Positions 3,385 through 15,883 of a DNA stretch of 37,098 bases are shown here, piece after piece; the stretch's first letter is position 1; the number at the start of each line of letters is the position of its first letter. The notes under the pieces were generated by a model, which made no database searches, was not told the DNA's origin, and worked only from the letters and a program-made list of their open reading frames with translations. The position numbers and the translations under genes are program-made. The stretch comes from a virus, in the IMG/VR virus record IMGVR_UViG_3300022074_000144, positions 1-37,098 of that record. One strand, given 5' to 3'.

Positions 3385-6300
3385 TTATAAAACTACTAAA
3401 CTTCCTTGAACATCTACGGTACCTTGTATATCCAATGGACCAGCTGCAACAGTTCCTTCTGTTGAAGCAATTGTAAATGTTTCTGATGCGTGCATAGCTA
3501 AGTTATGTGTAAAGAAACCACCCCTAGCAGCCATAGAAACATTATTGTCTATTGTTACTCTTTCTTGACCACCGGTATCTGCTCTAATTATATCTTCATC
3601 AGAACCTTCTTCTACTTGAATTTTGGTATCACTATCAGCATCAGTAATAGAGTTAGAACTTAATGAACCTAGTGCTGTATCTACATAAGCTGTAGTAGCA
3701 ACTTTAGTTGAATTATCACTTTGGTTTTGAGTCTTAGCTTTTAAGTCACCTTCTGTAACTGTTAAGTTAGCAGCCGCAGAACCATCTGTTGCAGTTGTAC
3801 CTACAACAAAAGAATCTGTTGACTCGTCCCATATAATTGCTGCATTATCTCCAGTAGAACCTCTTTCGATAATCATTCCAGCATCTGTGGTTAATGAACC
3901 ACCATCAGCGTTTAATTCAAATAAAGTATCCGTAATTTTTAATTCGTTAGCTTGTGTAGTTGTTCCAGTAACAGTTAAGTTAGTTACTGTTACACCAGAA
4001 CTTGTAGCTGTTATAACATCTGTTCCACCAGCTTTAATATGTACAGTATCATTGTCAGTAGTTCTCTCTACTTCAATTTTTGTATCACCATCATCATCTG
4101 CATAAGATGTCAATGTTTGTGTGGTTCCGGTCATATTAATTGGGTCTGATGAACCTCCTGCAAGTGTTACTGGTAAAGCACCACCTGTTGCAGCAGAACT
4201 TAAAACTATATTGTCTGTTGTACCATCGAAGTCTGTAAATGGCATTGTTCCACCACCACCACCACCTGAAGAAGTAAATGTAATACTATCCGCACTAGCA
4301 TCTGTTGTAAGTGTCATTCCTGTACCAGCTACAAGAGTTAAAGTATCAGTAGCTGCGTCAGCTACAACATTTGATTGTCCAGAAACTGCTAAGGTTGAAA
4401 AAGCATTTGCTGCACCACCAGTTGCTGCAAGAGTAAGAGTTCCAGCTGCATCATCATAAGTTTTTGTAATGTTTGCACCAGCAACTACTACATTGGCTGC
4501 GAAGTCTTCTACTTGTTCTTGAGTAAGTTGTGTGTTTGTATCTGCAGAAGCGATTGTTATAGAATCTCCAGAAGCATCTGTTGTAAGAGTTATATTGCTT
4601 CCTGCTACAAATGTTAAAGTATCAGTTGCTCCATCAGCAACTATATCAGACTGTCCCGATACGGATATAGTCTTAAATGCTTCAGATACAGAACCACCCC
4701 CAGTGACAGATAAATCGATAGTTCCATCACTATCTTGATAATCAACTGTAATATTGCTTTCGGTATTTCCACTGAACATAGCTCCAACTATGTCTTGTAC
4801 TGCTTCAGTATTAAGAGCAAATGTTACTTCATCTGTACCACCTACAGAAGTATCTATTCCAGAACCACCAGTAAGCGTTAATGTATTAGCATCTGCTACA
4901 ACTTGATTAGAACCACTATCAGCAGCTATTGTAAAGTTTGACATAGTACCTGCACCAGAAGCAGAGTTTAAGTCAGATACAGCTATTTTCTTTAAAGAAG
5001 TTGTTGAGTGGTCATAAATAAGTACAAAGTCATTTGTAGTGTCTACTGTTCCTGAATAAGCAGATTGTCCAGATATTACATTAGCATTAACCATTCCTGT
5101 TTCAACAGCAGCTGATTGAATTGTTGCAGTACCAGTTACATCACCAGCACCAGTAAATGAAGCAGATGTCCAAACAACATCTCCTGTCATTCCTATTGTT
5201 CTACCTGTTGCTAAGGCTGTTGCAGTGTCTGCATTACCTGTTACAGCACCTGTAACATTACCTTCTAAGTTTGCAACTAATGTGCCTGTTGATATTGTTA
5301 AGTTGCCTGTACTTGCACCTGTAAATGAACCTGTACCAACTATAAATTTGTCAGCACTTTCATCCCATCCTATGAATGCATTATCAGAGGAACCCCTTTC
5401 AATTACTATACCTGCATCATTAGCTGGTGAACCAGAAGTACCATTTCCAAGTTCTATTAGTGAATCACTAACAACTGTATTAGTTGTATCAATTGTTGTT
5501 GTAGTTCCATTTACTGTTAAGTCTCCAGTGATTGTTGCATTACCAGCAACTTCTAATCCAGTACCATTTAATAATTGGAAAGTGTCAGACTTTAATCTTG
5601 CAGTAATAACATTTGAACCTGCTTTAACATTTGCAAATTCAATAAGACCATCTTCAGAACCAGCAGAAGCATCTTGTATTTTACCTGTTATTTTTGCATA
5701 TACAGTAGAAGCTCCACCATCGTCATCACCTTTAAATTTAATTTGACCTAAGTAGTCTGCATCAGCTGGTGAAGAGCTGTCTCTCACAAAGTTAAATATA
5801 GGTCCAGCAGATGAGCCTGCATCAGTTGAAGTAAGTGTTACATCACCAGAAGTACTAATGTTACCTGTGCCTGTAATATCATTTGAATTTAAATCTAAGT
5901 TACCACCAAGTTGTGGAGATGTATCTTCTACAACATTATTTATAGATACTGCTTGAGCATCGCTGTCTGAGTATTGAGTAATTGTTGTAGCAATTACTCC
6001 AGAGCCAGAAAGAGTTATTCCCGTTCCAGCTGAAAGATAAGACTGTACATCGGCATCACCATAAGCTGAACCAAATACTGTAATTGTTCCACCCATACCA
6101 GAGTGTGAAGAACAGTAGTAATAAAGAATATCTGGAGTAGCAGCATTAACTGTAAATTCTATGTAAGCACCAGATTGTCCTTGTGAACCACTAGCAGTTC
6201 TACCAGTTGTATAAGCTGTACCTTCGCTTGTTTCTGATAATACAAATGGATGAGAAGCTACTGAGCTATCAGATAAATCAAATCTATGAACAACTCCCGG

Positions 6301-8985
6301 TCTAAATGATATTGTTGCTTGTGATTGTCCATCTATTACAAACTTACCACCAGCTACAGTTACAACATATTCAACAATTACTGTATTGTTTTCTAAGTTA
6401 ATAGTTTTATTTGTAAGTGTTTGAGAGTCATCTAAATCTACAAGTGTTGCATCAGATACTGCTGTTTGAAACTCTGCAAGGGTACCTGATAATGTGTTAT
6501 CTGTTAAATCTATAGATTTATTTGTTAAAGTATCTGTAGAACTTTCTGTAACAACTGTAGAGTCTATAGCAAATGTAATAGCATTACCAGAACCAGATGT
6601 ATCAATACCTGTTCCACCAGTAAATGTAAGTGTTTCGCTATCTAAATCTATTGATAATGCACCACCACTATCACCTTGAAAATCTAAATCTTGTGCGGTA
6701 ACTTGACTATCTACATATGCTTTTACAGATTGCTGTGTAGGAACTTTAACTGCTGAGTCAGAAGACATGTTATCTTCATCAACTAAGAAATCTATATTTC
6801 CTATTTGAACTGCATTTGCTTGTATTGTCGCGGTTCCAGTTACATCTCCAGAACCATCAAAAGAAGCAGATGTCCAAACAACATCTCCTGTCATTCCAAT
6901 TGTTCTGCCTGTAGCTAAAGCAGTTGCAGTCGCAGCGTTACCTGTTGTAGAACCAGAACTTCCAGTAACATTACCAGTAACATTACCAGTTACATTTCCT
7001 TCTATGTTTGCTACTAATGTTGCTGTGTTGTAAGTTCCAGCAGAGGTATCTACAGTGCCTGTTGGTTCTGTAGTTAATCCATCAAATAATTTAAATTTAT
7101 TAATACCACTAGCATCCCAATGTAAACCAACATATTTAGTTGTAGAAGATTGTACAATTTTTCCGTAAAAACCAATATCAGTAGAGTTACCAGTATTATC
7201 TTTAGCAAACTTGAACATTCCATCACCGACAGCAACAGTGGTAGAGTCAACAGTAGTTGTAGTACCCTCAACTGTTAAGTTGCCAGTTATAGTTGCATTA
7301 CCTGCAACGCTAATATTTGTTGATGTTATGTCGTCTGATGTAAGAGTTCCATCAACACTTACATTGTTAAAAGTTACATTATCAGAAGTTCCTACTGCTT
7401 GTCCAATAGATATAGCTCCAGTACCATTGTTATAAGTAACTCCAGTACCACCAGATAAACTTGCAAGTGTTATAAATGCAGAGTTTGTATTAGAGTAATT
7501 AGCTAAATCATTATCAACAACAAAATCTATATTTCCATCAGTGTCATCATAAGATACAGTTATTAACGTTTCTGTTCCGTCTAACATACCTCCAACAAAA
7601 TCTTCTACTTGCTCTTGTGTTAGAGTTGCTGTAATAAATCCAGAAGTACTGTTGTCATAATTTGCTAAGTCATTATCTACAACAAAATCTATGTTGCCGT
7701 CAGTATCGTCATAAGATACAGTTATCAGAGTTTCTGTACCATCGAGCATTCCACCAACAAAGTCTTCAACCTGTTCTTGTGTTAATTGAGTATTTGTATC
7801 AGTAGCATCTAGTGTAAGTGTTCCTGCTGTATCATCATATGTGGCTGTTACATTTGTACCACCTACAATTACACCATTTACAAAATCTTCAACCTGTTCT
7901 TGTGTGAGCTGAGTGTTTGTATCAGTAGATGCAATTGTCAAAGTACCTGCAGCATCATCATAAGTTAATGAGACATTAGACCCTGCTGTAAGCAAAGAAT
8001 CTACTCTATCATCAACTCTTTCATTTAAATCAGTTGTTATTTCACTTAAGTCAGCTGATATTGTTAATTGGTCATTACTATCGTCATAACTGATATCTAT
8101 ACCTGATGTTGCTGAATCAACTAATAGCGTTCCTACTCTGTCGTCTACTCTTTCATTCAAGTCAGTAGTTATTTCTGATAAATCTGCTGTCAAGGTAAAT
8201 GAATTTGCAGCATCATCGTATGCTACATCTACACCATTTCCTCCAACTACAAAACCAGAACCTATTCTGTCATCTATTCTTTCATTTAAATCAGCAGTAA
8301 CTTCTGATAGGTCTGCAGTAAATGTTAATGTACCAGCAGTATCATCATAAGCTGTATCTACACCAGCACCACCAACAATAAGAGCATTTACTCTATCATC
8401 AACTTTTTCATCTGTATAGTAAAAATTAGAAGAGCCTTCAGTTAAATCATCAGTGGTTAATCCTGATAAGCTAGAGACTGTACCTGTTACATTACCTTCT
8501 AAGTTTGCAACTATAGTTCCAGCAGTACCACTGAATACTTCTGCAGCATTTGTTGCATCAGGTATAAAAACAAATTTTCCTGTACTATCATCAAATCCAA
8601 AGAAACCTAACTTTGGTGCTGAACCAGTATGGTATCTAAACTCAATACCTCTATCTTTATTATCATCTGACGCTGGTGCAGTATCTCCACCTAATGTAAA
8701 TATTGGGTCATCAACTGTTACTGTTGTTGAATTTACTGTAGTAGTTGTACCATCAACTTGAAGATTGCCTCCAACTACTAAGTTTCCTGATGTTTGTAAA
8801 CCTGCAAATGTAGGAGTATCACTTGTTCCTAAACCTAAACCCTCTAGTAAAGCAGCTAATGAAGCATAAGAACCACCTGTACCACCATCATCTAAACCTA
8901 TAAACTCAGTAGATTGAAGCTCAGCAAAACCAGTGGGGTTACCACTATTATCAAAATTAACTCTTACTGGTGTTTTTTCTGCCAT
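3385..8985 (-). CDS. Very large repeat-rich tail fibre protein (1866 aa) with cupredoxin-like domain
   Basis: Starts MAEKTPVRVNFDNSGNPTGF, an N-terminus typical of marine phage fibres. Four divergent copies of a module (GTTTTV...V.D..F.L... D.GI ... ending in or near LVANLEGNVTG) are spread along the chain. From about residue 190 to 500 lies an array of short beta-rich repeats with DLSEITTDLNERVDDRV and LTQEQVEDFV-GG/NG motifs. Residues ~867-975 form a cupredoxin-like domain with H912, C958, H961 and M964. Later units include KVPTQQSVKAYVDSQV and TLAVSGQSNVVADAATDTL, the latter shared with the 384-aa neighbour. The C-terminus (EGTVAAGPLDIQGTVDVQGS then LVVL) is paralogous to that of the 196-aa protein. 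It is coupled to the upstream gene by TAATG. Probably a long trimeric side or tip fibre. No S74 chaperone is present, so folding help may come from nearby small genes. Confidence 0.85.
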   Translation of the reverse strand: MAEKTPVRVNFDNSGNPTGFAELQSTEFIGLDDGGTGGSYASLAALLEGLGLGTSDTPTFAGLQTSGNLVVGGNLQVDGTTTTVNSTTVTVDDPIFTLGGDTAPASDDNKDRGIEFRYHTGSAPKLGFFGFDDSTGKFVFIPDATNAAEVFSGTAGTIVANLEGNVTGTVSSLSGLTTDDLTEGSSNFYYTDEKVDDRVNALIVGGAGVDTAYDDTAGTLTFTADLSEVTADLNERIDDRIGSGFVVGGNGVDVAYDDAANSFTLTADLSEITTDLNERVDDRVGTLLVDSATSGIDISYDDSNDQLTISADLSEITTDLNERVDDRVDSLLTAGSNVSLTYDDAAGTLTIASTDTNTQLTQEQVEDFVNGVIVGGTNVTATYDDTAGTLTLDATDTNTQLTQEQVEDFVGGMLDGTETLITVSYDDTDGNIDFVVDNDLANYDNSTSGFITATLTQEQVEDFVGGMLDGTETLITVSYDDTDGNIDFVVDNDLANYSNTNSAFITLASLSGGTGVTYNNGTGAISIGQAVGTSDNVTFNNVSVDGTLTSDDITSTNISVAGNATITGNLTVEGTTTTVDSTTVAVGDGMFKFAKDNTGNSTDIGFYGKIVQSSTTKYVGLHWDASGINKFKLFDGLTTEPTGTVDTSAGTYNTATLVANIEGNVTGNVTGNVTGSSGSTTGNAATATALATGRTIGMTGDVVWTSASFDGSGDVTGTATIQANAVQIGNIDFLVDEDNMSSDSAVKVPTQQSVKAYVDSQVTAQDLDFQGDSGGALSIDLDSETLTFTGGTGIDTSGSGNAITFAIDSTVVTESSTDTLTNKSIDLTDNTLSGTLAEFQTAVSDATLVDLDDSQTLTNKTINLENNTVIVEYVVTVAGGKFVIDGQSQATISFRPGVVHRFDLSDSSVASHPFVLSETSEGTAYTTGRTASGSQGQSGAYIEFTVNAATPDILYYYCSSHSGMGGTITVFGSAYGDADVQSYLSAGTGITLSGSGVIATTITQYSDSDAQAVSINNVVEDTSPQLGGNLDLNSNDITGTGNISTSGDVTLTSTDAGSSAGPIFNFVRDSSSPADADYLGQIKFKGDDDGGASTVYAKITGKIQDASAGSEDGLIEFANVKAGSNVITARLKSDTFQLLNGTGLEVAGNATITGDLTVNGTTTTIDTTNTVVSDSLIELGNGTSGSPANDAGIVIERGSSDNAFIGWDESADKFIVGTGSFTGASTGNLTISTGTLVANLEGNVTGAVTGNADTATALATGRTIGMTGDVVWTSASFTGAGDVTGTATIQSAAVETGMVNANVISGQSAYSGTVDTTNDFVLIYDHSTTSLKKIAVSDLNSASGAGTMSNFTIAADSGSNQVVADANTLTLTGGSGIDTSVGGTDEVTFALNTEAVQDIVGAMFSGNTESNITVDYQDSDGTIDLSVTGGGSVSEAFKTISVSGQSDIVADGATDTLTFVAGSNITLTTDASGDSITIASADTNTQLTQEQVEDFAANVVVAGANITKTYDDAAGTLTLAATGGAANAFSTLAVSGQSNVVADAATDTLTLVAGTGMTLTTDASADSITFTSSGGGGGGTMPFTDFDGTTDNIVLSSAATGGALPVTLAGGSSDPINMTGTTQTLTSYADDDGDTKIEVERTTDNDTVHIKAGGTDVITATSSGVTVTNLTVTGTTTQANELKITDTLFELNADGGSLTTDAGMIIERGSTGDNAAIIWDESTDSFVVGTTATDGSAAANLTVTEGDLKAKTQNQSDNSTKVATTAYVDTALGSLSSNSITDADSDTKIQVEEGSDEDIIRADTGGQERVTIDNNVSMAARGGFFTHNLAMHASETFTIASTEGTVAAGPLDIQGTVDVQGSLVVL
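5159..5193. repeat. 35-bp direct repeat, copy 1 (copy 2 at 6863-6897)
   Basis: An identical 35-base stretch (plus strand begins GAAGCAGATGTCC) recurs at 6863-6897. Both encode the segment GMTGDVVWTSASF of a duplicated fibre module. It is the longest perfect repeat I noticed in this gene and could support recombination that removes the intervening 1.7 kb in frame. Confidence 0.8.
6061..6387 (-). other. Cupredoxin-like (blue-copper type) domain within the fibre gene
   Basis: This stretch encodes about residues 867-975 of the 1866-aa fibre: IVEYVVTVAGGKFVIDGQ, SFRPGVVHRFDLSDSS, HPFVLS, AYIEFTVNAATPDILYYYCS and SHSGMGGTITVFG. H912, C958, H961 and M964 fit type 1 copper ligands. The H-to-C distance of 46 is close to plastocyanin's 47, and C-x2-H-x2-M matches amicyanin's short ligand loop. 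Metal binding is inferred. Confidence 0.65.
6863..6897. repeat. 35-bp direct repeat, copy 2 (copy 1 at 5159-5193)
   Basis: Perfect match to 5159-5193. The match continues beyond it with scattered synonymous changes through the TATALATGRTIG segment on the downstream side of the plus strand. Confidence 0.8.
7495..8420 (-). repeat. Array of diverged beta-repeat modules in the 1866-aa fibre
   Basis: Successive units carry the pattern V-D-D-R-V/QVEDFV, then a variable GG or AGS, then YDD-x-x-G-x-x-T/I. Four units use a DLSE-(I/V)-T-x-DLNER spacer and several use LTQEQVEDFV. The two units at 7495-7623 and 7657-7785 encode the same 43 residues, although their DNA differs at 23 positions by my hand alignment. 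Confidence 0.8.
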
Positions 8986-10139: not shown

Positions 10140-10411
10140 TAACCTACACCAGGTATCTCGCTATCAAAACTCCCTCCTAACTGACCATATATAAAAATCA
10201 TTCTATTCATTTCTTCCATAACTTCTTTAACTGCTCTATACCAATTTTCGTATTCTTGATGATTTTCATCAAGCCTATCAATCATTAATCCAAAATGCTC
10301 TCTTTCTAAATCTTCAATTCTTCTTAGAACATAAGCCATTTTGTAATCATGACTTATAAATCTATAAGGCATATGGAATTCATCTTTCTTTTTTTGATTA
10401 TCGTCAGACAT
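10139..10411 (-). CDS. Hypothetical helical protein (90 aa) between hub and fibre genes
   Basis: A charged, probably all-helical protein: MSDDNQKKKDEFHMPYRFIS followed by MAYVLRRIEDLEREHFGLMI and a Tyr/Trp-containing helix ending in a Gly-rich tail. No membrane segment or signal is visible. GGAGG precedes a TAATG-coupled start, and the gene is coupled to the fibre by TAATG. I do not recognise the family. A small coiled-coil connector or fibre-assembly chaperone is plausible from position. Confidence 0.7.
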   Translation of the reverse strand: MSDDNQKKKDEFHMPYRFISHDYKMAYVLRRIEDLEREHFGLMIDRLDENHQEYENWYRAVKEVMEEMNRMIFIYGQLGGSFDSEIPGVG

Positions 10412-13400
10412 TATCCCTCCAATGCTTCGATTCTAGCAGTTAAATCTGAATTCTGTGTGCTTAGTTCTTGTATTGCTTTTACTAATGGTGCAATTAAATT
10501 TTCTTGAGAATAATTATATTCATCGGATTCTGTGTCGTGGTTTACTAAATTGTACAGTTTACTTGTACCTAATTCAGGAAGCATTTCTTGTGCAATAAAA
10601 CCAAAAGTATGTTTATCATCTGCTTCAGTGAATTGTTCTGTTACAGTCCCTGTACAGTCTATTAAGACTTCTTCGTCATTCTCATCTACAGATTTTATTT
10701 CTGAATTACATTCTTGTGCTGATTCATATATCTGACCACAAATATCACAGGAAAAACCGCTTGACATAGATTTCCAAGTAAATTCTCTAGGTCTTAAATT
10801 ATTTATAAAATCTAAACCATAATCTATATCTGTAATATTTTCTTTTAATCTTTCATCAGATGTTGAAGACTCAGAAATTCTAAATACAGTAGCCCATCTT
10901 CTACTAGAACTTCCTAAGTTTTTACCACCATTAGTACTTGGTTGAAAATTTGAATATACTGTTGATGTACCTGTTCCAACAGTTAAACCAAAGCTACCGC
11001 CTGGTTTTAAATATACAAAGCTAGAAGCAAAATCTATAAGTGTTGAGCTGAGCCTATCATAAACTTGTGCTACTGAAGCATAACTAGTAGTTCTCACATA
11101 ACCAGTACCATTCATATTTCCAAAGTTTTGTAATTCTTGACCTGCTAAGTTTATTGGTCCAGACATACCAAGACCACCATTTCCAATATTAGCTGCGTCT
11201 AAAGTAGCAGTACCAGTTAAAGTATTTGCATTAAGTTGCCCAGATACATTAACATTGCTTAAATTTAAAGTACCAATATGTGTATCACTTAAAGCATTGG
11301 TTGCAACGCTACCACCATCAACTGCATTATCTTCTATCTTATCGTTGTTAATAGCATCATTAGCAATTCTATCTCTATTTATTGCACCATTTGCTATTTC
11401 ATTTATAATGTCAGTTGCACCAACACTTAAAGAACTAAAAGCTAAACTACCTGCAGTAACATCTGAAAAATCTAATGTACCACCAGATATTTGGTCAGCA
11501 GAAACAGTTCCAGTAAATGTGCCACCTGCAGCACTTAAGTTTCCAGAAAATGTACCTGTAGCAGCACTAAGTGCTCCTGAGAATGTACCACTAGCACCAG
11601 TTATATCTCCTCTAAAGTTACCTGTGTTAGCTTCAATAGTACCGTCAGCTTTTATTATCCAACCATCAGAACCTGAAGAGTAGTTACTAGATTTAATAAC
11701 AGCACTATCAGAAGTATTAGTACCAACAATTATTTCTTGACCAGCAATAGTACCTGCAGTAATTTTACCTGCAGTTAATGTATCTATTTTTGCATCAGTT
11801 ACAGCTAGGTTTCTTATCTTTGCTTCTGTTATAGCGGCATCAGATATATTTGCAGTAGCTACTAAATTACCATTAGCTGATTGTTCATCTGATGGAGAAG
11901 ATTCATTACCTGCATTATCTACTGCTGTAAATCTAAAGAAATGTGTAGAGCCATTAGGCATCTGTACTTCACCTACTACAGGTATCTGGTGTTTTATAGA
12001 AGCTGAACCAACATTTAATTCACCAACCTTATGTTGTTCTTTGTCATTTGCTGAGGATAAAGAAAAACCTGAAGAAGTTGATGCGTATACATTTAAATGA
12101 TGTGTATCTCTTTGTAGTGTAAAATTAACAATAGAACCTATAGCATTACCTGAATCATCTTCTGCTCTACCTAAATTATGTATTATCTGAACTCTTAGAG
12201 CTCCAGCTGCTATTGTTGCAGCAGGTCCTGGTTTAGATGGAGCATTAGTATCTAAAGCAGTAGTAACAGTTCCAGTCGCTGGTTCTGATGTATTAGCATT
12301 TGTTAGTATTGCAATAACTCTTACTTCGTAAGAAGTATTTAACTGTAATCCTTCAATTGTAAAATCATTAGTAGAACTCCAATTTATAAATGAAGATTGA
12401 TAGTCACCAGTTGTATTAGTTGGTTTCCAATCTATTTGATACTGTAAACCATTTTGAACAGGTGAACCATTATCATATGTAGGTTCTTCCCATTGAACAA
12501 ATATAATTGCATTATCTCTCCCTAAGTCATCCTGTACTGTTGCAGATGTAAGTTTTAAATCACCTTCAACTAAAGTATCGGGATGCCTAGGTTTTCTTAC
12601 TCCTGTCTGTCTAGTACCAGATACTACTCCTGTTACAGCAGAGCTAAATCTTAAATCTTCTCCTATACGTTTTTGTAAATCACCAATGTCTAACTGGGTG
12701 TTACCAGTTTCCCAAGAAACGTAATCTGATAAATCTATGTACTCCACTCTGTAGGGAGATGTTGAAGCAACTTTTCTAAGGTACACACCATATCCATCTT
12801 TGACTGGCCATGTTATTCCTGTAATTCTTATTTTTTCAGGATTAATAATTTGACCACGGTATGCTACTTCAAATAAAGAACTTCTACCATCTTCTATTCT
12901 CTTTGCTTCAGTATCTTCAAATCTTATTTCAGGGTCATAAACATATATCATATCTCCAACACTAAAGTCACCTTGTAAGTCATACTCTTCTAATGAAAGT
13001 GATAGAGTTTTCTTTACCTTCTTAAATTCATTTAGATAAGCTAGAGCTCTTTCATTTCTTTGAATATTAGGTATATTGTTTTCACCAACAAATTGTATTC
13101 TTTCTAAGTCAGCTCCAAATAAATCTTTATAAGGTGTGTTATTATCAAATGCTTCTGCATGGTCAGCTTGTTGTGATGAGCCTTCAGCTTGTGTGAGTAA
13201 CTCTACACCTGATACATAATCTTCTGCATCAAACTGTGCAGTAATTTGTTCTGGTGTAAGACCAGATATTGCTGGGTCTTCTCCAGATACATCTCTTACA
13301 ATTATTGCAGGTGGTTCATTTGTTCCATGACCTCCAAACAAAACCTCTTTTTTACCAGCATCTAAAGTTCCATTTGTATTTATTCTATATTCTGTTTCCA

Positions 13401-15189
13401 ACTGTTCAGAAATAGTATTGATTGCTGAATAAACTGACTCAACATAATGTTCCCCATTGTATAAACCTGTAGTAGAAGTAGTTGATAATTCAGAACTAGG
13501 AGCAGTAAAGTTAGCAGTATATAATGCAGTTCCCTTTGTTACTCTTAATCCATCAATATAACCTTTAAAGTAATCTGAACCTTGTGAACGACCAATTGAA
13601 AATTTTAAAGTTCCATCTCTTGTATTTCTTGTTATAGCTTTTGGAGATGTAAACTCAGAAACTTTTGTACCATTTTTAAAAGTTCTAAATACATTACCTT
13701 TTCTTGTAATAGCAAAATGATTCCATTGACCATAGTTAATTGTTCCCATAGATTTACCATCTGCAATATCCCAGATAGTTGTATCGGTACCACTTGATAT
13801 CGTGCTTTGTGAGAGAGATGAACGCATATAAACTTTAGATGTTCCTGCTCCATCTTCGTTAAGACCAATTATAAATGCAGGTGTTTGCCCATCAGGATTA
13901 GCTGCAAAAACAGCTCCATGATTAGTAGCACTTCTAGGTGCTTCAACTACATCTGCGCCATGATAAAACTTTTCATTTGGTTGCCAAAATTTAGAATAAT
14001 ACTTTTGATAGAGTGGGTCATTTTCATAGAAGGTTGTACTACCAGGTTCAGTAGCGTATATAGACCTGTTACCTGTGTAATAATCTGGAACATCTGTACT
14101 TAAGTTTGCAATTAATGCAGAACTTGCTCCTGTATGAAAGTCTACAGATGGTGTAAAAAATACTTGTTGTTCGTCTGATGCTACAGTTCTACTTGTAGAA
14201 TTTCTAGCACCAATTGAACCATCTAAACCAAAATCTACATTTTTTTTATTTTCAAAATATTCAACTGGTATTGTTGCACCTTGATACCAATCAGGTTGTG
14301 TTATTGGATTGATAGTTGTTGGAAATGTTCTTGAACCTGCTGTACCCACCAACTCATCTATATCATTATTTCTTCTATCTATCTGTGGTTTTACCCAAAA
14401 GTAAGTTCCATCTTTTCCAACAGAAGCTAACCACATTAGTGCATATGCAGCATTATTATATGCTGTTAAGTTAGCAGTAGCTGTTACTGAAGTGCCATCA
14501 ACTAATTTATATCTGTCTACAAAAAATGAATGTTCAAATCCAGCTTGTCCTTGATGAAAACATATAGCAACCATGAGGTCATAGTGTTTTTGTGCAAGTG
14601 TATTGTCATAAGGGAAAGCATCTTTATGGGAATTAAATACAGACTTAACTTTTGTTTCTACTGCAGATAATTTATCTTGTAGTAATTGGTCAGCTAATGT
14701 CGCAGAAAATACTTTAGTAGAATTAGTTGAATCGTTACCTGTATATTTTAATTTAATAGAAGCATTAGTAACTTGATTGCCAGCCTCATTTTTAAAGAAA
14801 CCACCAGTGCTGTTTGTAGCATTAGCATCATTAAATTCTGCAGGAAATATAAATGTTGTTCCGCCAATATCTATACCTGTATTGTAAACCTTATTAAATA
14901 AAGTATCTTTACCAGGAACACCATCAAGAGTTGTTCCGTAACCAATAGTTAAAGTACCTCTTATCTGTCCATGATAATTTGGGTCATATGGAACACGACC
15001 ATAAAAGTCACTTATGTAATTAGTTGTTGCATTTGATGGTTTAGGGTCATTATCTAAATACTGTAAACCTACTGCAGAAAATAAAGGATATCCATCATCA
15101 TAAACAAATGGTATATATTTTTCAGCTGATTTTATTTTGGTTAAACCAGAAGAAGATAAAGAAGCGTTAGCTAAATCAAACTGTGGCAT
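10411..15189 (-). CDS. Tail hub / central tip protein: lysozyme, LamG C-half, hub, Fn3, S74 chaperone (1592 aa)
   Basis: Residues 1-~285 resemble a GH24 (T4-type) lysozyme. E23, D32 and T81 (AEKYIPFVYDD ... LTIGYGTT) match the catalytic Glu-Asp-Thr, with a ~45-residue insertion between D32 and T81, and IDRRNNDID matches the late Arg-rich signature. Residues ~416-566 (APRSATNHGAVFAANPD ... YGQWNHFAITRKG ... YFKGYIDGLRVTKGTALY) are the C-terminal half of a LamG/concanavalin-like domain whose N-terminal half ends the upstream gene. Hub sequence follows (LETEYRINTNGTLDAG, FDAEDYVSGVELL, then VGDMIYVYDPEI), then one or two Fn3-like domains (~867-1105), GTFSG-type beta repeats (~1180-1245) and a Peptidase_S74 chaperone with S1444/K1449 as the expected Ser-Lys dyad. 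C1481, C1484, C1494 and C1512 form a four-Cys insert within S74. A short coiled coil ends the chain. Confidence 0.85.
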   Translation of the reverse strand: MPQFDLANASLSSSGLTKIKSAEKYIPFVYDDGYPLFSAVGLQYLDNDPKPSNATTNYISDFYGRVPYDPNYHGQIRGTLTIGYGTTLDGVPGKDTLFNKVYNTGIDIGGTTFIFPAEFNDANATNSTGGFFKNEAGNQVTNASIKLKYTGNDSTNSTKVFSATLADQLLQDKLSAVETKVKSVFNSHKDAFPYDNTLAQKHYDLMVAICFHQGQAGFEHSFFVDRYKLVDGTSVTATANLTAYNNAAYALMWLASVGKDGTYFWVKPQIDRRNNDIDELVGTAGSRTFPTTINPITQPDWYQGATIPVEYFENKKNVDFGLDGSIGARNSTSRTVASDEQQVFFTPSVDFHTGASSALIANLSTDVPDYYTGNRSIYATEPGSTTFYENDPLYQKYYSKFWQPNEKFYHGADVVEAPRSATNHGAVFAANPDGQTPAFIIGLNEDGAGTSKVYMRSSLSQSTISSGTDTTIWDIADGKSMGTINYGQWNHFAITRKGNVFRTFKNGTKVSEFTSPKAITRNTRDGTLKFSIGRSQGSDYFKGYIDGLRVTKGTALYTANFTAPSSELSTTSTTGLYNGEHYVESVYSAINTISEQLETEYRINTNGTLDAGKKEVLFGGHGTNEPPAIIVRDVSGEDPAISGLTPEQITAQFDAEDYVSGVELLTQAEGSSQQADHAEAFDNNTPYKDLFGADLERIQFVGENNIPNIQRNERALAYLNEFKKVKKTLSLSLEEYDLQGDFSVGDMIYVYDPEIRFEDTEAKRIEDGRSSLFEVAYRGQIINPEKIRITGITWPVKDGYGVYLRKVASTSPYRVEYIDLSDYVSWETGNTQLDIGDLQKRIGEDLRFSSAVTGVVSGTRQTGVRKPRHPDTLVEGDLKLTSATVQDDLGRDNAIIFVQWEEPTYDNGSPVQNGLQYQIDWKPTNTTGDYQSSFINWSSTNDFTIEGLQLNTSYEVRVIAILTNANTSEPATGTVTTALDTNAPSKPGPAATIAAGALRVQIIHNLGRAEDDSGNAIGSIVNFTLQRDTHHLNVYASTSSGFSLSSANDKEQHKVGELNVGSASIKHQIPVVGEVQMPNGSTHFFRFTAVDNAGNESSPSDEQSANGNLVATANISDAAITEAKIRNLAVTDAKIDTLTAGKITAGTIAGQEIIVGTNTSDSAVIKSSNYSSGSDGWIIKADGTIEANTGNFRGDITGASGTFSGALSAATGTFSGNLSAAGGTFTGTVSADQISGGTLDFSDVTAGSLAFSSLSVGATDIINEIANGAINRDRIANDAINNDKIEDNAVDGGSVATNALSDTHIGTLNLSNVNVSGQLNANTLTGTATLDAANIGNGGLGMSGPINLAGQELQNFGNMNGTGYVRTTSYASVAQVYDRLSSTLIDFASSFVYLKPGGSFGLTVGTGTSTVYSNFQPSTNGGKNLGSSSRRWATVFRISESSTSDERLKENITDIDYGLDFINNLRPREFTWKSMSSGFSCDICGQIYESAQECNSEIKSVDENDEEVLIDCTGTVTEQFTEADDKHTFGFIAQEMLPELGTSKLYNLVNHDTESDEYNYSQENLIAPLVKAIQELSTQNSDLTARIEALEG

Positions 15190-15190
15190 A

Positions 15191-15883
15191 TCACGGACTC
15201 AACCTGTATTCCCACCATTCAATAGTGAAATCTCTATCATCTAAATTTAAATCATTATTGTAATCTATTTGTACGTGGTCTGATGCTCCAGTTAATTCTA
15301 GAGAAGAACCACCAAATTTATTTTGGTCGGTTGATATCTGTGCATTATCAAAAAATGTTAAAGTTTGTCCTAAGGCAGAAGCGTCAGTAGTTGTTGTTGC
15401 TCCGTCACTACCATTAAAGTTTAATAAAAGAGTTGTATCTTCTTTAGATGGGTCAGTAATTGTTCCTGCTCTAATAGCTCTTTGTTTACCTTCATCACCT
15501 TCTCTCAATATTCCAAATGGTTTACCACTTGAGTTATCGAGAACAAAAGATAAAGTCTTTTCGTTATAAGTTCTTTTAGAAGATAAGCCACCTTTTTCAG
15601 CTATAGGTAATCCTCTTGTCTCACTATCACCTAAGTAAGCAATTAAACCTGTACCTTCAACTTCTACTGTTTCGTCTTGAATTGCTAATTCTGTAATAAT
15701 TCCTACATACTCAGCACTTGACAACATACTTGAATCATCAAGTTCATCTTCTGAGACACGGGCAGGCATTATAACAATATGCTCCCATGGTTCAATAGAG
15801 TTCACTATTGAGTTAGGTACTAAATCTATATTTAAAGAAACATTAAATGTTCCAGGTGCCATAAGTTTTTCTGTTACACTCAT
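15191..15883 (-). CDS. Tail hub N-terminal part ending in half a LamG domain (230 aa)
   Basis: Residues 1-~145 (LMAPGTFNVSLNIDLVPNSI, WEHIVIMPARVSEDE, YVGIITELAIQDETVEVEGT) resemble the N-terminal domain of siphovirus hub proteins of the Gp37-like type. Residues ~152-230 begin a LamG domain (LLLNFNGSDGATTTTDASAL, KFGGSSLELTGASDHVQID, DFTIEWWEYRLSP) and stop midway through it. The missing half is in the next gene after a ~415-residue insert. The stop TGA is followed one base later by the next ATG, a +1 frame change; the window in which a +1 slip could fuse the frames is only a few codons. The start overlaps the Dit stop as ATGA after GGTGG. The N-half must therefore associate with the next product, or a fused form is made. 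Confidence 0.75.
   Translation of the reverse strand: MSVTEKLMAPGTFNVSLNIDLVPNSIVNSIEPWEHIVIMPARVSEDELDDSSMLSSAEYVGIITELAIQDETVEVEGTGLIAYLGDSETRGLPIAEKGGLSSKRTYNEKTLSFVLDNSSGKPFGILREGDEGKQRAIRAGTITDPSKEDTTLLLNFNGSDGATTTTDASALGQTLTFFDNAQISTDQNKFGGSSLELTGASDHVQIDYNNDLNLDDRDFTIEWWEYRLSP

Follow-up and report, generated by a model that had tools for sequence, protein, structure and literature searches.

Can the tail fibre of a marine phage contain a blue-copper-like site? The question is raised by one long gene in a 37,098-base stretch of viral DNA (hereafter the window), which is a whole IMG/VR virus record and possibly a fragment. The phage is tailed, and its genes include those for an HK97-type capsid, a protease, a portal, a terminase and a tail tube protein; the terminase is only ~25% identical to those of the best-listed phages in the collection. 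Searches of the window for Rfam families and tRNA genes found none. The long gene encodes a protein that matches the PHROGs families phrog_697 (structural protein, 2e-61), phrog_30742 (tail fiber, 5.5e-15) and phrog_677 (2.8e-14). The initial annotation had proposed that a cupredoxin-like domain with a complete set of copper ligands lies inside this fibre. Therein, the position of the domain and the four residues H912, C958, H961 and M964 were as claimed when we mapped them onto the open reading frame (Table 1).

The candidate ligand set in the fibre

The four residues are spaced by 46, 3 and 3 positions and form a C-x2-H-x2-M loop, exactly as had been described. The H–C spacing of 46 is close to that of plastocyanin, which is 47, and the loop is identical to the ligand loop of amicyanin, C-x2-H-x2-M. 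C958 is the sole cysteine of the fibre. Since the 1866 residues include only 1 Cys, 9 His and 17 Met, chance would hardly produce the residues in this order and at these spacings (~1e-5 over all plausible H–C spacings, by our own arithmetic). None of the nine histidines belongs to an HxH motif. H900 was also considered as the first ligand and was ruled out, as this position is Tyr in most relatives. The search of the window's own record gave no second cupredoxin-like copy, so the domain occurs there once. Elsewhere in the same protein, residues ~405–505 contain near-identical internal repeats, in which LTQEQVEDFVGGMLDGTETLITVSYDDTDGNIDFVVDNDLANY occurs twice, with variants elsewhere.

Table 1. 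Positions of the fibre gene, the cupredoxin-like domain and its predicted ligands in the window.
Feature	Coordinates	Strand	Basis
Long tail-fibre-like structural protein, 1866 aa	3385..8985	−	ORF; PHROGs matches; last large gene of the tail module
Cupredoxin-like domain, residues 867–975	6061..6387	−	AlphaFold2 and fold matches
H912 codon, predicted N-terminal His ligand, HPF motif	6250..6252	−	Invariant in 40 rows; before strand 914–917; pairs with plastocyanin-like His
C958 codon, predicted Cys ligand	6112..6114	−	Invariant in 40 rows; end of strand 953–958; pairs with plastocyanin-like Cys
H961 codon, predicted C-terminal His ligand	6103..6105	−	Invariant in 40 rows; model; profile pairing
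M964 codon, predicted axial Met ligand	6094..6096	−	Invariant in 40 rows; precedes last strand 966–970; profile pairing
Linker before the domain, QTLTNKTINLENNTV-type	6388..6435	−	Flank comparison of all loci; common to most fibre copies of the module

Predicted fold and comparison with blue copper proteins

The AlphaFold2 model calculated from a 40-row alignment of the domain is a confident β-sandwich of nine strands (pLDDT 88.2, pTM 0.83; model residue i is fibre residue 861+i). In this model, H912 is located directly ahead of a strand, C958 ends the penultimate strand, and H961 and M964 lie in the loop ahead of the last strand (Table 1). The placement of type-1 copper ligands along the strands is known from plastocyanin, amicyanin and azurin, and the predicted ligands occupy the corresponding positions along the strand order of the model. 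In a model of a 271-residue fibre segment, high confidence is largely confined to the cupredoxin-like domain, as would be expected of an independent bead.

We compared the model with solved structures using Foldseek and VIA-align, and the 50 best-listed matches are all cupredoxin folds. The best Foldseek row is rusticyanin (E 3e-5), and laccases, AcoP, pseudoazurin, nitrite reductase and amicyanin are also present, with modest TM-scores of ~0.5. The VIA-align superposition on rusticyanin covers 91 residues at 2.7 Å with 18% identity and a Z of 8.9, and the laccase and nitrite reductase domains give Z of ~8.0–8.5; these Z values barely exceed those reachable by unrelated models, and all of the rows shown belong to one superfamily. 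The Greek-key β-sandwich of the cupredoxin superfamily is found both in the prediction and in all listed fold matches, and the ordered His, Cys, His and axial Met of a type-1 site are found at the strand positions of the predicted site. On this structural evidence, residues 867–975 very probably adopt the cupredoxin fold, as the initial annotation had suggested. BFVD models of many marine phage proteins match the domain in fold as well. Two further BFVD entries, A0A481YVH3 and A0A481Z6J5, which are marseillevirus and pithovirus β-sandwich proteins, also match the domain fold.

An immunoglobulin-like or other β-sandwich fibre domain with a fortuitous YYC..H string could resemble such a site, and PDB sequence searches do return antibody chains through YYC..H at E 0.14 and above. 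However, cupredoxins alone occupy the 50 fold-search rows shown, and 96 distinct copies of the domain keep the ligands. The Ig-like reading was rejected, with antibody chains absent from the fold-search rows shown, and chance resemblance in general is extremely improbable.

At the sequence level, neither Pfam nor NCBIfam has a model that captures the domain. The isolated domain scores 13.2 bits against PF00127 (Copper-bind), under the curated cut-off of 21.2 bits; 13 of 40 family members match this model at E up to 0.1 (best 0.011), and the window's own record gives no PF00127 match at E 0.001. PF25489 (At5g54830-like domain) scores 18.6 bits against a curated cut-off of 27 bits, with 11 of 40 members matching at E up to 0.1 and the best at 3.8e-6. 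The alignment with plastocyanin that the initial annotation called for was carried out between profiles. The hhalign comparison of the domain with a plastocyanin-like profile, built from 16 sequences from bacterial genomes, gives a probability of 91% across 73 columns and pairs all four ligands, where column shuffles reach at most 1.2% and a known plastocyanin-like/azurin pair reaches 96%; these probabilities are single comparisons and not a calibrated database search. When the ligand columns are masked, the value drops to 0.9%, so the sequence link to plastocyanin-like proteins depends on the ligand columns. The domain profile does not reach azurins (hhalign 0.7%), and a search of the plasmid collection for the domain gave no match.

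Thus compared, the domain resembles small blue copper proteins (plastocyanin, amicyanin, pseudoazurin, rusticyanin) in its predicted fold, in the order of its ligands and in their strand positions. It differs from them in several respects. The first His in small blue copper proteins is usually followed by Asn or Thr, whereas in the fibre it is followed by Pro (HPF), and the sequence stays under the PF00127 cut-off. Small blue copper proteins are soluble or exported electron carriers, whereas this domain sits inside a viral fibre and its copper site is a prediction. Likewise, amicyanin is the soluble periplasmic electron carrier of methylamine dehydrogenase, whereas the domain with the same loop is internal to an 1866-residue viral structural protein. 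The laccase motif HPFHLHG holds the same H-P-F context, and the type-1 copper domain of laccase, a multicopper oxidase, is similar in both fold and first-His context. Unlike multicopper oxidases, the fibre has a single such domain, lacks the HxH motifs of type-2/type-3 copper sites and has a shorter ligand loop.

Distribution of the domain and conservation of its ligands

A sequence search of IMG/VR gave 18 relatives and a subsequent profile search at least 169, of which 80 were kept for analysis. By tblastn, at least 108 annotated phage records carry the domain; among the matches listed, the records by name are Synechococcus, Prochlorococcus, Pelagibacter and Methylophilales phages or are of seawater origin. 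The statement in the initial annotation that similar CSSHSGMGG motifs occur in other marine phages was correct. The putative blue-copper-like fibre domain is not a one-off, and structural proteins of marine phages commonly contain it.

All 40 aligned copies have H, C, H and M at the four positions, the 39 others sharing 44–89% identity with the domain of the window. One of the two patterns used in the IMG/VR profile search includes Cys, so as a control we ran a profile with the four ligand columns masked on the phage loci found by tblastn without a Cys pattern; the ligand set was recovered from these loci as well. Over all loci, the complete set is present in 96 of 107 distinct matches. The other 11 consist of three copies cut by contig ends, one spurious frame, two repeats of counted copies and five real site-less copies, the last being second copies in L101, L102, S-B64, S-IOM18 and Sf-CH1b. 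In L101 and L102, GFPL replaces GHPF and both Cys and the second His are gone; each of these proteins also has an intact first copy. The second copy in the baseplate protein of cyanophage S-B64 has lost the first His, Cys and second His; that in the baseplate protein of cyanophage S-IOM18 has lost the first His, and the stretch stops before the Cys/second His. Finally, Sf-CH1b keeps the first His and has Ser for both Cys and the second His. Loss of a single ligand was not found among the copies readable in full.

The residues between Cys and the second His vary freely (SS, TA, SN, QH, GN, ES, KN), and the H–C spacing ranges from 41 to 58. The second His and Met are separated by x2 in 96 of 97 copies and by x4 in one (C-x2-H-x4-M), the x4 spacing being the loop length of plastocyanin. 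In 47 viral ORFs of at least 400 aa, the domain accounts for 6,059 of the 54,197 residues (11%) and for 55 of the 68 Cys. At the codon level the domain is under purifying selection, with dN of 0.025–0.117 and dS of 0.20–0.50 between the window domain and six close relatives, and with silent changes in the H912 codon. The joint loss of Cys and the second His, together with the free variation between them, points to one metal site: the family either keeps the full set or loses these two residues together.

This pattern bears on whether the fold works without copper, the Cys-His-Met set serving another metal such as zinc, a structural thiol or fold stability in a plain adhesion bead. Copies without the site exist in nature, so the fold is usable without it; apart from the ligands, little in the sequence ties the domain to blue copper proteins; and free copper is very low both in seawater and in cytoplasm. 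However, the joint ligand loss and the free spacer indicate a single metal site, and every copy with a site retains the Met, a residue uncommon as a zinc ligand. We consider a copper-free domain improbable; the domain probably binds copper.

Module context and possible roles in the virion

Comparison of the flanks of all loci shows several settings for the domain. In long fibres it lies internally, preceded by a 'TLTNKT.N.E.N' linker; elsewhere two copies stand in tandem. Short proteins and gp9-like baseplate connectors end exactly with the domain, podoviral pelagiphage fibres have it close to their C-terminus, and further virion proteins carry it too. The flanks are unrelated among carriers, and some cyanophages have up to four domain matches. 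In the window fibre, the bead is located mid-protein and is not terminal. The viral families that include the domain, the PHROGs phrog_697, 30742, 677 and 693 (tail fiber, structural protein, baseplate connector), were named by gene position, and their annotation does not mention a resemblance to copper proteins.

Outside phages, relatives were found in marine Bacteroidetes, encoded by very long frames (5,164 and 8,253 aa); across that phylum, 10 of 296 genomes gave a match. The Bacteroidetes frames L101 and L102 (and L117–L121) each have one intact copy near the start and one ligand-less copy. The domain also matches PF25489 At5g54830-like and bacterial CHRD-associated domains weakly, in the C-terminal half that includes the C..H..M region, and the extracellular CHRD-associated bacterial relatives share the same HPF...C..H..M set. 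Those are cellular proteins with other partner domains, unlike the viral carriers, and the matches are under the curated cut-off. In the bacterial CHRD-domain proteins L152–L156, a related HPF...C..H..M domain is found at one end. The module looks like one common to bacterial surface proteins and phage fibres.

The explanation that we favour, with moderate confidence for the reading as a whole, is a cupredoxin bead with a predicted copper site in structural or host-contact use. Residues ~867–975 would form an independently folding cupredoxin module with an intact type-1-like site, as one bead of a modular fibre. Each chain would acquire a single copper ion at the predicted site, either from seawater or from the lysate of the host. 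Copper loading would have to proceed by some route despite the reducing host cytoplasm, the presumed place of fibre synthesis, and this counts against the reading. The bound copper would tie the His912 strand to the C958–M964 loop and stiffen the loop-rich end of the bead, which may then act as a host-contact or fibre-structural module. The computations themselves give the ligand set and its strand positions, the predicted fold, the conservation and joint loss of the ligands and the reuse of the module; we infer copper as the metal and stiffening as its effect, and host contact solely from the presence of the domain in fibres and baseplates. Also against this reading stand the modest structure scores (TM ~0.5, Z under 9), the fall of the profile link on masking of the ligands, the PF00127 score below its cut-off, the failure of the profile to find azurins and the Pro after the first His.

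The copper site may instead be used chemically, such that host copper-uptake or electron-transfer proteins recognize the loaded fibre or receive copper or electrons from it, or a redox change at the host surface triggers attachment. The complete ligand set has an axial Met, as is typical of type-1 sites with redox activity, the domain occurs in phages that infect marine hosts, and its location near the C-terminus in podoviral pelagiphage fibres and gp9-like proteins would suit such a use. There is also a published parallel with iron: binding sites with HxH motifs and a proposed Trojan-horse use, the 'Ferrojan horse', have been described for the tail fibres of T4 (gp37) and Alteromonas phage R22Y (PMC11705849). 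A metal site is proposed in a phage tail fibre in both cases; however, iron in gp37 and R22Y lies between HxH pairs of the trimer, whereas the window site is within one folded domain of a fibre that has no HxH. Moreover, the window bead is not at an end of its protein, and the same domain occurs in baseplate connectors and bacterial surface proteins, which favours a general structural or adhesive use. Chemical use of the site is therefore unlikely, and structural or host-contact use of the copper bead is preferred.

We found no description of a cupredoxin-like domain in phage fibres in the open-licence literature, and a prior description elsewhere is possible. The family is unnamed, and its carriers bear no annotation beyond 'tail fiber', 'structural protein' or 'hypothetical protein'; they include cyanophages, pelagiphages and Methylophilales phages, whose hosts are abundant in the sea. 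The models and the conserved ligands suggest tail-borne copper sites in many marine phages. If fibres do carry blue-copper-like sites, phage adsorption would gain a metal-dependent step, and phages would count among the ligands that bind trace copper in seawater. It is a bolder and rather doubtful proposition that marine phages widely carry genuine type-1 copper beads in fibres and baseplates and use the copper in attachment, through its redox state or through recognition by host copper-handling surface proteins. Such an attachment use, if true, would be the copper counterpart of the iron 'Ferrojan horse' and would imply a virion-bound copper pool in the sea.

Two other observations concern the tail module of the window. 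First, a LamG domain is split across the adjacent ORFs 15191–15883 and 10411–15189 (−): the first ORF stops right after DFTIEWWEYRLSP, and the second starts with a lysozyme-like part and then continues into the second half of LamG, so that phrog_3545 is matched at 738–828 and then at 859–980. LamG is intact in one ORF of ~1000 aa in the relatives L195, L196, L201–L203 and L205–L211, and it is broken at the same place, with inserts of several lengths, in L185–L187, L189 and L197–L200. The break may have arisen by repeated insertion of an endolysin-like module, with LamG left as two chains. Finally, at the C-terminal end of 10411–15189 (−), a Peptidase_S74 (endosialidase chaperone) match spans only the first half of that domain. 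After it comes a Cys-rich stretch, CDICGQIYESAQEC...DC, which looks like an inserted zinc-ribbon.
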